Positions 11,274 through 19,325 of a stretch of DNA of 64,000 nt are shown here, piece after piece; the stretch's first letter is position 1, and every line of letters begins with the position of its first letter. The stretch lies in NCBI RefSeq assembly GCF_004331735.1, contig NZ_SJSO01000013.1, forward strand, positions 62,001 through 126,000, written 5' to 3'. A program made the translations under genes and the position numbers. Below the pieces are notes generated by a model. The model was given only the letters and a program-made list of their open reading frames with translations. It was not told the origin of the DNA and did not search any database. Origin of the DNA: Pedobacter psychrodurus. GTDB taxonomy: Bacteria > Bacteroidota > Bacteroidia > Sphingobacteriales > Sphingobacteriaceae.

Positions 11274-11630
11274 ATGGCTAGGATAATTTTATTGGAGGAC
11301 GATACAGATATACGAGAAGTGGTACAATGGATACTGGAATCCGAGAACTATGAGGTTTTTGGTTTTGTGAATGTTGCTGACTTCATGGACCGGGACCTAA
11401 ATCTTGTTCCTGATCTATATATATTAGATGTTATGCTTCCAGATGGCTCAGGCCTGGATGTATGTAGCCATATTCGCAATGAAAGCAGAGATGCCCAGGT
11501 ACCCATCATCATCATGAGTGCCCATGCCAGCCTGGAACAGGTAAGTAGTGGATGCGTGGCTGATGCCTTTATCCAGAAACCATTTGATGTAGATAGCTTG
11601 TTGAAAAAAGTAAATGAACTTGTTAACTAA
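11274..11630 (+). CDS. Single-domain response regulator (receiver only)
   Basis: A 118-aa CheY-like receiver with no output domain. It shows the acidic pocket LLEDDTD near the N-terminus, the phosphoacceptor Asp in LYILDVMLPDGSG (about residue 53), the Ser of IIIMSAH and the conserved Lys in IQKPFD. Such proteins act as phosphotransfer intermediates or bind partners directly. The PAS histidine kinase 180 bp downstream on the same strand is the obvious candidate partner; the orphan kinase at 17823 is another. The ATG follows an AT-rich leader without a strong Shine-Dalgarno sequence, as is common in this phylum. Confidence 0.93.
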   Translation: MARIILLEDDTDIREVVQWILESENYEVFGFVNVADFMDRDLNLVPDLYILDVMLPDGSGLDVCSHIRNESRDAQVPIIIMSAHASLEQVSSGCVADAFIQKPFDVDSLLKKVNELVN

Positions 11631-14778: not shown

Positions 14779-15234
14779 TCAATTAAAGTGGTATAAAAAC
14801 ACCACATTCCCCGTGTATGCCATTTTTGTCTGCCCCATAATGTCAAGATCAGCCTGGATTACAACTTTTGTTATGCCCCTTAGGTCTGAAATTGAAATCA
14901 GCTTCGCACGGAGCTGGACTTCATCATTGACCCGAACGGGAAGGTTAAACCTAAATTTCTCGATGCCATAGTTAACTTCCATTTTAACATCCCTGATGTC
15001 CGCAATCTGCTTCCACAGATATGGGATAAGCGATAGTGTAAGATATCCATGAGCAATGGTGGAGCCGAATGGGCTATTTAGCGCTTTATCCGCATCCACA
15101 TGTATCCATTGAAAGTCAAGCGTTGCCTCTGCAAATCTGTTGATCTGCTCCTGATCGATCTTATGCCACATAGATTTGCCGATCTGTTTCCCCAGATAGG
15201 CTTTGTATTCTTCAAAACTGTTAATGATAACCAT
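14779..15234 (-). CDS. MaoC-like (R)-specific enoyl hydratase / dehydratase
   Basis: A 151-aa hot-dog-fold protein of the MaoC family, which hydrates trans-2-enoyl thioesters to (R)-3-hydroxyacyl thioesters or the reverse. The hydratase motif is present: the catalytic Asp and His fall in ATLDFQWIHVD (about residues 36-46), followed by the typical GSTIAHGYLTLSL helix. Length is normal for the single-domain form. It lies 178 bp downstream of the FabH-like ketosynthase on the same strand, so the two probably act on related acyl substrates and may share a transcript (inference). G+C is higher than in flanking regions outside the 11-19 kb segment. Confidence 0.9.
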   Translation of the reverse strand: MVIINSFEEYKAYLGKQIGKSMWHKIDQEQINRFAEATLDFQWIHVDADKALNSPFGSTIAHGYLTLSLIPYLWKQIADIRDVKMEVNYGIEKFRFNLPVRVNDEVQLRAKLISISDLRGITKVVIQADLDIMGQTKMAYTGNVVFLYHFN

Positions 15235-15412
15235 AAATATTTGGAATGTTATATATCAAATAGCATACAATATATTACTCAACTTGTTTGCCAGACAGTT
15301 AAATATGCTTTAAATTTTAAGGCTGTCTGAAGCGATCATCCATGCCCAATTGTCCGCTTTAGTCCTGTTAATAACAGATCGCCTAATAAATTTCAATTTT
15401 TAGGGTGTATGA

Positions 15413-16492
15413 TCAGAATCTGTACAGGAAGGCATTGATGTGCATCCCCGCCCCGACTGATGCAAATACTGCAACGTCGCCCTCTTTTACGCTGTAACCC
15501 TTGATTTGCCCATGTAGTACCAGATCCAGTAGCGTAGGTACCGTTGCTACTGAGCTATTGCCAAGCCATGAAACGGTCATTGGTACTAGTCCCTGCGGCA
15601 CACTGTTCCTGCCGTATAGCTTGAACAGATTTCTCATTATTGCAGCATCCATTTTTTCATTAGCCTGGTGCACAAAGATAATGTTGATGTCTTCAAGGGC
15701 CAGACCTGATTTTTCGATCGCTTTCTGGATTACCAATGGCACCTGTACAATAGCGAACTCATATAGCTTTCTGCCGTTCATCTTCATGAAACGATTAGCA
15801 TCGTCTGCTGTAGGATCATTGGTTTTACCCATATACAGGTGGTTACCATGGCCCATTGCAAAAGTCTGTGTTTTGTGGGCCAGGATACCTTTGTTCTGTT
15901 CTGCCTCTTCGCCTGCCTCAAAAATGACCGCGCCCGCACCATCTGCAAAGATCATGCTGTCACGGTCGTGCGCGTCTATGATCCTGCTTAGTGTTTCGGA
16001 GCCGATAACCATTACTCTGCGCGCATCTCCACTCCTGATATAATAGTCTGCCTGTATGGAGCCCTGGACCCAGCCCGGGCATCCAAAAATAATATCGTAT
16101 GCAACACAGTCTGGGTTCATAATGCCTAAGTGCTGTTTAACCTTCGAGGCCAGTGAAGGCAGAAGATCACTTCTGTTTGATCCTGGTTGGATGTCCCCGA
16201 AATTATGGCAGAAGATGATATAATCAAGGGTTTCTTTATCTATTCCCGAATCGTTCAGTGCCATTTGCGCCGCGCGGGCTGCAATGTTGCTACACAGCTC
16301 GTTCTCACCGGCATAGCGCCGCTCCAAAATCCCTGTGATCTGCGAGAACTTATTGATGACCTCAGCATTGGGCTTATCCAAGGGGACCCCGTTCTCAAAA
16401 AAAGTGGCATCCATAAAATATTCACTTCCAATTACTTTTTCGGGTATATAACTACCCGTGCCCCTAATAACAGACCTTGTCGTTTCTTTCAT
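15413..16492 (-). CDS. 3-oxoacyl-ACP synthase III family (FabH-like) ketosynthase
   Basis: A 359-aa thiolase-fold condensing enzyme of the KAS III type, which joins an acyl-CoA or acyl primer to malonyl-ACP by decarboxylative Claisen condensation. The catalytic triad is visible: Cys in IIFGCPGWVQG (about residue 138), His in FVHQANEKMD, and Asn in SWLGNSSVATVP. It is longer than housekeeping FabH (about 320-330 aa), with an extra N-terminal stretch (FFENGVPLDKPNAEVINKF) seen in specialised Bacteroidota homologues, so it more likely makes a secondary or modified acyl product than straight fatty acids (inference). Its neighbours are a MaoC hydratase downstream and a divergent RsbQ-like hydrolase. 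Confidence 0.88.
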   Translation of the reverse strand: MKETTRSVIRGTGSYIPEKVIGSEYFMDATFFENGVPLDKPNAEVINKFSQITGILERRYAGENELCSNIAARAAQMALNDSGIDKETLDYIIFCHNFGDIQPGSNRSDLLPSLASKVKQHLGIMNPDCVAYDIIFGCPGWVQGSIQADYYIRSGDARRVMVIGSETLSRIIDAHDRDSMIFADGAGAVIFEAGEEAEQNKGILAHKTQTFAMGHGNHLYMGKTNDPTADDANRFMKMNGRKLYEFAIVQVPLVIQKAIEKSGLALEDINIIFVHQANEKMDAAIMRNLFKLYGRNSVPQGLVPMTVSWLGNSSVATVPTLLDLVLHGQIKGYSVKEGDVAVFASVGAGMHINAFLYRF

Positions 16493-17010
16493 GGTATAGA
16501 TGCGTAAGCGCTTAAATTTTAGGTTTCAAAAATATTATGAAATGTGATAAAAAAAAATAAAAATTGCAGATTAACCATCTGATCCCTTTTTTCTATAACG
16601 GAAAGCACTGGCAGCGCTTTCTATAATCCATTGGTATATAGTCACAATCGGGAAATCTGTAGAACACTTGCCAGCTGTAGCCGAAATAGTTTCACTGTTA
16701 ACTTTAAGATCAATGCAGAACATGGTTAAGTAGGTACCAGAACACCCGCAAACGGACAACCGGAGACTATACATTAATCTGCACTTTGGCCCGAATTTAA
16801 ATTGGTTATTCATTAACGTGGTATGCTTAACCTGATCGTTTTGACTTCGGTAGCTACCTGATAACCTGGAGATTCCGAATTGGTTGTCCGCTTTGCACAT
16901 TAATCTGTTATTGTAAACTTTTTTCCAAATTCGCTGTTTTACAGATGTTAAGTGTTGATCGAAAAGAAAATTATATAGATTTGTCTGCATTTCTCTTGAC
17001 AAACTATTTT
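16493..17010. other. Divergent intergenic region with inverted motifs, no confident gene
   Basis: This 518-bp region separates the ketosynthase from the divergent RsbQ-like gene. It holds short inverted motifs: CGGACAACC near 16755 against GGTTGTCCG near 16882, and a repeated ACATTAATCTG near 16771 and 16897. A 143-codon frame on the minus strand (16571-17002) is open but reads like non-coding sequence. It probably contains both promoters and perhaps a degenerate repeat. Confidence 0.4.
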
Positions 17011-17802
17011 ATGGATATTTTAAAACGAAACAATGTAAAAGTATTTGGCGAAGGCAATACGACGATGGTATTTGCCCATGGCTATGGATGCGACCAGAAT
17101 GTATGGCAGGATATCATCAATACCTTTGCTACCGGTTACCGGGTAGTCAGCTTTGATTACGTCGGCGCTGGCCTATCTGATCTTTCCGCTTATGATCCCG
17201 CGCGCTACAGCACTCTTGAAGGATATACCCAGGATATCCTGGAGATCTATGAAGCGTTGGGACTGACCGATACAATCCTCGTAGCCCATTCGGTAAGCAG
17301 TATGATCGGTCTTCTGGCAGGTATTAAGCGCCCTGATTATTTCAGGAACATTGTTTTTGTAGGCCCCTCACCCCGTTATCTGAACGATGGTGAATATTTT
17401 GGTGGTTTTGAAAAGGAAGACCTGGATGGCCTGTTCGAGATGATGGACAACAATTACCTTGGATGGTCTAGAGCACTTGCGCCGTCGATTATGGGCAATG
17501 CCGAGCGGCCGGAACTTGGTGAACGCCTGACCAACAGTTTTTGTGCGACCGATCCGGAGATAGCCAAACAGTTTGCCAGGGTGACCTTTTTGTCGGATAA
17601 CCGTGCCGATCTACCCCATTTGACTGTGCCGAGCCTGACCTTGCAATGTAGCAACGATATGATCGCACCGATTGCGGTAGGTGAGTACATGAACCGGAAC
17701 ATGCAGGGCAATACCCTTGTTGTTATGGATGCGACGGGCCACTGTCCTCATATGAGCGCACCTGGGGAAACGATCAAGGCGATCAAAGACTATCTTAACT
17801 AA
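17011..17802 (+). CDS. rsbQ-like: RsbQ-type alpha/beta hydrolase, putative small-molecule receptor/processor
   Basis: A 263-aa alpha/beta hydrolase closely resembling Bacillus RsbQ in wording along its length: FAHGYGCDQNVW, FDYVGAGLSDLSAYD, GPSPRYLND, GHCPHMSAP. The predicted catalytic triad is Ser94 (AHSVSS), Asp216 (CSNDMIAP) and His244 (TGHCPHMS), at almost the same positions as in RsbQ. In Bacillus, RsbQ is needed with the PAS domain of RsbP to sense energy stress, and the family is related to the plant KAI2/D14 hormone receptors. I chose ATG 17011 because it aligns with RsbQ's start (MDILKRNNVKVFGEGN); an upstream ATG at 16945 adds 22 unlikely residues. The next gene, 20 bp downstream, carries an RsbP-like PAS domain. 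Confidence 0.93.
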   Translation: MDILKRNNVKVFGEGNTTMVFAHGYGCDQNVWQDIINTFATGYRVVSFDYVGAGLSDLSAYDPARYSTLEGYTQDILEIYEALGLTDTILVAHSVSSMIGLLAGIKRPDYFRNIVFVGPSPRYLNDGEYFGGFEKEDLDGLFEMMDNNYLGWSRALAPSIMGNAERPELGERLTNSFCATDPEIAKQFARVTFLSDNRADLPHLTVPSLTLQCSNDMIAPIAVGEYMNRNMQGNTLVVMDATGHCPHMSAPGETIKAIKDYLN

Positions 17803-17822
17803 CCACGATAAATCCTAACAGC

Positions 17823-19325
17823 TTGGAGCAATCTACAAACGATGATTTTTTAAGGGCGCTAACCGACCCCGAGCTGCTGTATGAGAATGCGCCCTGCGGC
17901 TATCTTTCCTTTGCTGCAGATGGCAAGATCGTGAAGGTTAACCAAACCCTGATCTCCTGGCTGGGATTTTTCAGAGCAGAAGTGGTGGATAAACTGACCT
18001 TCAAAGACCTGGTATCAAAGGGTGGAAAAATCTATTATGAGATGTTTTATATGCCGCTATTGCGCATGCAGCCTATGGTGAACGAAATCAACTTTGATTT
18101 TATCAGGAAGGATGGTTCAGCCTTCCCTGCGCTGATCAATTCCAGTGTATTCCACAACTCGGAGGGCAAGGTAGTGGCGGTGAATGCAACTGTATACAAC
18201 ATTACCGACCGCAAAAAATACGAGAAAGAACTATTGGATGCCAAAAAACAGGCCGATTCCGAACGTAGCAAATTTGAACTGCTTGCAGACTTTACACCGG
18301 AAATAATCTTTACTGCGGAGCCCGATGGGGAGATCAGTTATGTCAACCGGCGTTTCACCTCTTTCTTTGGCCTGCCCGCAGGAGGGTTTAAAACCCGGGA
18401 TGTGCTCAGCAAAGTCCATGCGCAGGATCAGTTTAAGTTAATCAGAAACTGGACTGCTGCTGTAATGGCAAAAGTGGACTTTCAGATGGAAATCAGGCTG
18501 CAGACACTAAATAGTGAATCCCACTGGCATATGGTACGTGCCCTTCCCATCATCTCCGCCACCGGAAATGTAGAGAAATGGATGGGTTCCTGCACGGACA
18601 TCAATCAACATATCAAAGCGATCCAGCACCTGGATGAGTTTATCACGGTGGCCAGCCATGAACTGAAAACACCCATTACCAGTTTAAACGCCTCGCTGCA
18701 ACTGATGGAAAGGATGGTGGAGGTGCAAGGTAATGCCAAGCTATCCACACTCATGTCTCAGGCTAACCGGAGCGTGCAGAAGGTGCGCCACCTGGTTGAA
18801 GACCTGTTGCATACCGGGAGCATCAAAGAAGGGCAAATTTCCTTACAGAAAAAAGTGTTCAGCATATCTGACTGGTTGGCTGGGAGCTGCGGACATGTTA
18901 AGCTTGAGGAAAAATTCAACTTGCATATCGCCCCATCAGGGATTATTTTTGTAGAGGGCGATGAGCAAAGAATCGATCAGGTTTTAGTGAATTTTGTGAA
19001 CAATGCGATGAAATATGCACCAGGTTCTACTGATATCTATATTTCCGCTGAAATCCTGGGTGAAAGGGTAAAAATTTCTGTTCGGGATCTGGGGCAGGGT
19101 ATTCCTGCCGATAAGCTTCCCTATCTGTTTGACCGCTATTACCGGGTCGATTATACAGGCGGCAGTGCCTCCGGACTCGGACTTGGGCTGTACATCTGTT
19201 CAGAAATTATCAGGCGGCACGGCGGGGAGATCGGTGTAGATAGCCATCTTGGGGAAGGCAGTACCTTTTGGTTCACTTTGCCACTTTTTAAACCTGATCT
19301 TGAATATCAGCGTAACATGAACTGA
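17823..19325 (+). CDS. RsbP-type PAS / PAS / histidine kinase fusion
   Basis: A soluble 500-aa kinase. The first PAS domain (about 20-135) resembles the PAS of RsbP, with ENAPCGYLSF, the MFYMPLLRMQP segment and KDGSAFPALINSSVF. A second PAS/PAC domain spans about 150-265. The HisKA domain follows, with H279 in VASHELKTPITSLN, then a HATPase with N-box NFVNNAMKYAP, DLGQGIP and GLGLGLYICSEI. In Bacillus RsbP the PAS is joined to a PP2C phosphatase; here the output is a histidine kinase. The start codon is TTG at 17823, since no in-frame ATG precedes the PAS domain. It sits 20 bp after the RsbQ-like gene, so co-expression is near certain. No cognate regulator follows; the receiver at 11274 is one candidate. 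Confidence 0.92.
   Translation: MEQSTNDDFLRALTDPELLYENAPCGYLSFAADGKIVKVNQTLISWLGFFRAEVVDKLTFKDLVSKGGKIYYEMFYMPLLRMQPMVNEINFDFIRKDGSAFPALINSSVFHNSEGKVVAVNATVYNITDRKKYEKELLDAKKQADSERSKFELLADFTPEIIFTAEPDGEISYVNRRFTSFFGLPAGGFKTRDVLSKVHAQDQFKLIRNWTAAVMAKVDFQMEIRLQTLNSESHWHMVRALPIISATGNVEKWMGSCTDINQHIKAIQHLDEFITVASHELKTPITSLNASLQLMERMVEVQGNAKLSTLMSQANRSVQKVRHLVEDLLHTGSIKEGQISLQKKVFSISDWLAGSCGHVKLEEKFNLHIAPSGIIFVEGDEQRIDQVLVNFVNNAMKYAPGSTDIYISAEILGERVKISVRDLGQGIPADKLPYLFDRYYRVDYTGGSASGLGLGLYICSEIIRRHGGEIGVDSHLGEGSTFWFTLPLFKPDLEYQRNMN

Follow-up and report, generated by a model that had tools for sequence, protein, structure and literature searches.

A Bacteroidota variant of the RsbQ-PAS module on a soluble histidine kinase of Pedobacter psychrodurus

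The window analysed here is a stretch of 64,000 nucleotides from the genome of Pedobacter psychrodurus, in which a gene for an alpha/beta hydrolase is followed on the same strand by a gene for a sensor histidine kinase. The open reading frame of the hydrolase extends from an ATG at position 17011 to the stop at 17802, and that of the kinase from a TTG at 17823, 20 bp past the hydrolase stop, to the stop at 19325; checking both frames confirmed the gene coordinates of the initial annotation of this locus. A longer start for the hydrolase, an ATG at 16945, was considered and rejected for lack of homology support. The features referred to below are as follows.

11274-11627, plus strand: stand-alone CheY-like receiver, 5.4 kb upstream of the pair (Pfam; similarity to the receiver in genome G123)
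17011-17802, plus strand: RsbQ-family alpha/beta hydrolase, 263 amino acids (phmmer, residue alignment, tree)
17290-17292, plus strand: codon of catalytic Ser94, equivalent to RsbQ Ser96 (pairwise alignment)
17656-17658, plus strand: codon of catalytic Asp216, equivalent to RsbQ Asp219 (pairwise alignment)
17740-17742, plus strand: codon of catalytic His244, equivalent to RsbQ His247 (pairwise alignment)
17823-19325, plus strand: soluble sensor kinase PAS1-PAS2-HisKA-HATPase, 500 amino acids (Pfam, motifs, hydropathy)
17883-18209, plus strand: PAS1, RsbP-type, residues 21-129 (profile match; AlphaFold PAS fold)
18018-18068, plus strand: predicted F-alpha helix of PAS1, residues 66-82 (AlphaFold model and alignment)
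18198-18209, plus strand: NITD, the DIT-type linker motif ending PAS1 (sequence pattern)
18285-18602, plus strand: PAS2, an ordinary PAS domain unrelated to RsbP-PAS (Pfam; RsbP-PAS profile without match)
18630-18830, plus strand: HisKA, with phospho-acceptor His279 at 18657-18659 (Pfam; motif)
18957-19286, plus strand: HATPase_c catalytic domain (Pfam)

Among proteins of solved structure the hydrolase matches RsbQ of Bacillus subtilis far better than any other (1wom; phmmer E = 1.7e-96, 326 bits), with an Oleispira protein and the plant receptors KAI2 and D14 next in rank, which bears out its assignment to RsbQ. The hydrolase and B. subtilis RsbQ share 54% identity, the catalytic triad Ser94/Asp216/His244 is intact with exactly the residue numbers given before, and of the residues lining the RsbQ cavity V97, F136 and F196 are retained while F27 is replaced by tyrosine (pairwise alignment). 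In a tree of RsbQ proteins the hydrolase groups with RsbQ from PAS-PAS-histidine kinase modules of the same genus. Plant KAI2 and D14 act as receptors; the hydrolase of the window belongs to the same family (E about 1e-62 to 1e-52) and has the same triad, but its presumed partner is a PAS kinase, whereas the plant partner is an F-box protein. In bacteria, RsbQ is the counterpart by descent of the plant receptors for strigolactones and karrikins.

The kinase comprises the Pfam domains PAS_9, PAS, HisKA and HATPase_c, its H-box (SHELKTP) and its ATP-binding motifs (DLGQGI and GLGLGL) are intact, and hydropathy analysis found no membrane-spanning segment, as no stretch is hydrophobic enough; the proposal of a soluble protein with HisKA-HATPase output is thereby corroborated. 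No response regulator gene adjoins the pair. In genome G123 a receiver gene adjoins the corresponding module, and the closest match to its product in the present genome is, by a small margin, the stand-alone receiver at 11274-11627. The same linkage is seen, again by a small margin, in G005, but the correspondence fails in G029 and G039; on sequence similarity the stand-alone receiver may be regarded as a weak candidate for the response regulator of the kinase. Divergent from the hydrolase gene, on the minus strand at 14779-16492 of the window, lie genes for a MaoC-type dehydratase and a KAS III-like synthase. Comparison with 12 relatives revealed no conserved neighbours of the module besides the pair itself; neither the upstream KAS III/MaoC genes nor the downstream katG are conserved beside it, and a role of these neighbours in ligand synthesis was therefore dropped.

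In order to compare the first PAS domain with RsbP, a profile was built from 27 PAS domains encoded directly after rsbQ in Firmicutes, Acidobacteria, Gemmatimonadota, Chloroflexota, Verrucomicrobia, one cyanobacterium and one proteobacterium, all Bacteroidota being left out. In a search of its own genome PAS1 scored 80.9 bits against 31.1 bits for the next best place, and in a local search with the same profile PAS1 scored 76.4 bits while PAS2 gave no match. At seven of nine class positions PAS1 fits the consensus, with C10, L13, the basic residue 53, the aromatic residues 55/56, E72 and P86 kept in the alignment, and the two deviations, L48 to V and Y59 to F, are conservative. On the F-alpha helix, Y71, Y72, F75 and P78 of PAS1 align with F55, C56, Y59 and P62 of RsbP. 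The AlphaFold model of PAS1 (pLDDT 94.9) has a complete PAS fold with a long F-alpha at residues 66-82, and a further modelled helix, at residues 128-138, comes after the domain. As judged from its sequence, PAS1 is specifically related to RsbP-PAS, and the resemblance claimed at the outset indeed exceeds that of ordinary PAS domains, since matches of at least 64 bits also track rsbQ throughout the 396 genomes described next.

The absence of conserved adjacency in Bacteroidota had been named beforehand as a possible refutation, and adjacency turned out to be conserved. Among 147 genomes of the genus, RsbQ (E <= 1e-30) is encoded in 64 and PAS1-like domains in 37, at 41 places, 33 of which come immediately after an rsbQ gene of the same orientation, the gap being 11-71 bp. 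In a sample of 396 Bacteroidota genomes all 21 profile matches of at least 64 bits adjoin rsbQ if a single match at a contig edge is included, and apart from that match no PAS domain of at least 64 bits without an rsbQ neighbour was seen there. The 12 weaker matches in these genomes include none immediately behind rsbQ and one in divergent orientation beside it. At locus L253 (G418:C45, match 247121-247393, plus strand) an rsbQ-PAS pair is flanked by another RsbP-like PAS gene, which matches more weakly and is transcribed divergently. A PAS protein is encoded immediately downstream in 18 of 20 RsbQ loci fetched from the phylum sample, and when all loci fetched are taken together, those from a search with a three-row RsbQ alignment included, the next gene codes for an RsbP-PAS protein at 117 of 135 non-redundant RsbQ loci, which represent many phyla. 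It is one PAS subtype that adjoins rsbQ, in different phyla and with three types of output.

The RsbQ-PAS module was defined by Nadezhdin, Brody and Price in 2011 from 45 adjacent pairs, with a phosphatase as output in Gram-positives, a histidine kinase in Gram-negatives and a diguanylate cyclase (GGDEF) in both (PMC3183031). The initial annotation was hence right in stating that hydrolase/PAS pairs with varied outputs are known. As for the two-gene sensing system that it described here, RsbQ, the RsbP-type PAS domain, the kinase output and the adjacency are all supported, but modules with kinase output in Gram-negatives had already been published (PMC3183031). Like these, the pair in the window has rsbQ directly upstream, a HisKA and HATPase_c output and an additional PAS domain, as found in 5 of the 45 proteins described; a coiled-coil was predicted between PAS and output in 36 of the 45, the exceptions including proteins with extra PAS domains (PMC3183031). 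With B. subtilis RsbQ-RsbP it shares the identical triad, the residues C10, L13, E72 and P86, the aromatic F-alpha positions and the gene order, but it differs in having HisKA-HATPase instead of a PPM phosphatase as output, in the extra PAS2 and in the lack of a demonstrated sigma-B pathway.

Unlike the modules of 2011, PAS1 of the window has a DIT-type end (NITDRKKYE), belongs to a Bacteroidota subfamily and carries the L48V and Y59F exchanges. In the 2011 set there was no RsbQ-linked PAS domain with a DIT motif, which was described as a difference and not used as a selection criterion (PMC3183031). As counted with a simple purpose-written sequence pattern, DIT-type ends occur in 13 of 13 members of the window subfamily, in 7 of 33 other Bacteroidota and in 0 of 51 sequences from outside Bacteroidota, so that the generalisation holds outside the phylum and fails in the window subfamily. 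PAS1 is therefore classed as a variant and not as a plain member of the RsbQ-PAS module, and the combination of an RsbP-PAS domain, a DIT linker, a second PAS domain and a kinase makes the architecture a variant in the coupling of module to output, which may differ from that of earlier RsbQ-linked PAS domains lacking such an end. In other words, the pair is a Bacteroidota variant of the published module, and its subfamily shows, against the published generalisation (PMC3183031), that an ordinary PAS linker can serve to couple the module to the output. Bacteroidota are not named in the running text of that survey (PMC3183031). As far as the literature could be checked, the earlier statement that ligand and target in Bacteroidota are not known stands.

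Taken as a whole, we consider it probable that a two-part input module of RsbQ and PAS drives the histidine kinase via docking, linker and phosphotransfer. A small molecule would be bound or turned over in the Ser-Asp-His pocket of the hydrolase; by analogy with RsbQ and KAI2, butenolide-like compounds may be proposed as a candidate ligand class, the analogy being to a 2024 report on B. subtilis RsbQ. If B. subtilis is taken as a guide, the hydrolase would dock on the F-alpha helix of PAS1 and the triad would be required for signalling. The contact would then be relayed via the DIT linker and PAS2 to the HisKA-HATPase core and set its autokinase activity, and the core would pass its phosphoryl group on to an unlinked response regulator. 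The analogy draws on the observations that B. subtilis RsbQ binds RsbP-PAS, that F55 and Y59 of RsbP are required both for signalling and for RsbQ binding, and that triad mutants of RsbQ are null (PMC3183031). Covariation between the two proteins was computed for 117 RsbQ-PAS pairs, with partners shuffled within 8 or more sequence clades as control. Pairs joining the PAS F-alpha and the RsbQ lid account for 29 of the top 200 against 5.7 expected, but the clade shuffles reproduce this figure (mean 27.5); the signal may therefore only reflect shared ancestry, and covariation was dropped as contact evidence. Since the output is a standard histidine kinase, autophosphorylation offers a simple biochemical readout for ligand screening.

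Several alternatives have to be weighed against this explanation. That PAS1 is an ordinary PAS domain, its likeness to RsbP being general PAS similarity, had likewise been named beforehand as a possible refutation. It might be suspected from a fold search with the PAS1 model, in which the nearest solved structures were heme and LOV PAS domains of generic type, about 20% identical, and from the DIT ending of PAS1, which is typical of ordinary PAS domains; a sequence search of the PDB found no RsbP-PAS structure for structural comparison. However, the 80.9 bits of PAS1 face 31.1 bits for the best other PAS domain in the genome, and such scores occur in the 396 genomes solely beside rsbQ, one contig edge aside, which leaves this alternative highly improbable. 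Likewise, the hydrolase might be a metabolic or detoxifying esterase merely co-transcribed with a kinase that senses by PAS2 or by PAS1 alone, a possibility favoured by the solitary RsbQ copies common in the genus. We regard it as unlikely, given that RsbQ and one PAS subtype are adjacent across phyla with three output types, that the score threshold of the profile tells PAS domains linked to RsbQ from all others nearly without exception, and that RsbQ binds RsbP-PAS in B. subtilis (PMC3183031).

For the B. subtilis proteins two models have been put forward, with the sensor residing in PAS (Model 1) or in the hydrolase (Model 2) (PMC3183031). Applied to the window, the hydrolase would under Model 1 be an enzyme handing its product to a pocket in PAS1 as the true sensor, and not a receptor acting by contact as in Model 2; this deserves serious consideration at somewhat less than even chances. 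It is at odds with the receptor function of the plant relatives KAI2 and D14, which is general knowledge, with RsbP-PAS having no known ligand and with the occurrence of solitary RsbQ copies without an adjoining PAS domain. In its favour, every RsbQ class that was aligned retains the triad, even where a PAS partner is missing, PAS1 is predicted by its model to be a complete PAS fold, and in B. subtilis mutation of the RsbQ triad gives a null phenotype (PMC3183031). Against the preferred reading, docking of the hydrolase on PAS1, stands the second RsbQ of this genome, which lacks a PAS neighbour, so that the partnership of hydrolase and PAS need not be exclusive.

This solitary paralogue (G000:C10:54394-55173, corresponding to locus L061:8386-9222) has 53% identity, and the genome thus encodes one partnered and one solitary RsbQ together with a single RsbP-type PAS domain, which amounts to a natural comparison. 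Solitary copies (group B) form a clade that branches inside A1/A2 in the RsbQ tree (SH-aLRT 97). An RsbP-PAS neighbour was found at none of 25 solitary loci; at about 11 of these a convergent receiver gene lies alongside, mostly coding for about 250 amino acids, followed by a LytTR regulator. Pfam detects only the receiver domain in these proteins, the remainder of which might possibly form an HPt-like tail.

Further lineages depart from the usual pairing to different degrees. In group A3 (13 loci) a single RsbP-PAS domain without DIT resides on a kinase of about 370-396 amino acids, which is the form closest to the published module and no break in the pattern. In group A2 (seven loci: L070:4912-5991, L080:5353-6420, L013, L016, L020, L022 and L024) the RsbQ-module protein is a PAS-PAS-DHp or PAS-DHp protein without HATPase, which carries the motif 'QSHMIRKPLANILGL' at the conserved histidine and stops about 55 residues later. 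Group C (L065:3524-6801, L066:5986-9272, L067, L068, L123 and L248-L251) is a diverged RsbQ-like clade with 42-45% identity, the triad being kept in the one member aligned. At nine of nine group C loci the next gene codes for a kinase of about 820 or about 680 amino acids, the PAS domain of which does not match the RsbP profile (about 0 bits); no Pfam family was found in the N-terminal 165 or so residues of the two tested, and both kinases of 827-828 amino acids that were scanned are hybrid kinases. This RsbQ pairing is one that the text of the 2011 survey does not describe (PMC3183031).

It is conceivable, at close to even chances, that RsbQ in this genus extends beyond the fixed RsbQ-PAS pair to ATPase-less PAS-PAS-DHp proteins acting as phosphoacceptor or scaffold, to a solitary clade derived from paired ones and accompanied by receiver and LytTR proteins, and to a diverged clade with a kinase lacking RsbP-PAS. 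A single type of hydrolase receptor would in that case serve several different relay proteins. Independently of rsbQ, PAS proteins with the same DHp-like helix pair (QSHxxRKPLANIxGL) and without HATPase are encoded at loci L263-L283, and ATPase-less PAS-DHp proteins, whether linked to RsbQ or not, end 52-65 amino acids after the histidine. In some members of the genus this family is large; G094, G035, G072 and G116 each contain about 20 matches, for part of which the absence of the ATPase was confirmed.
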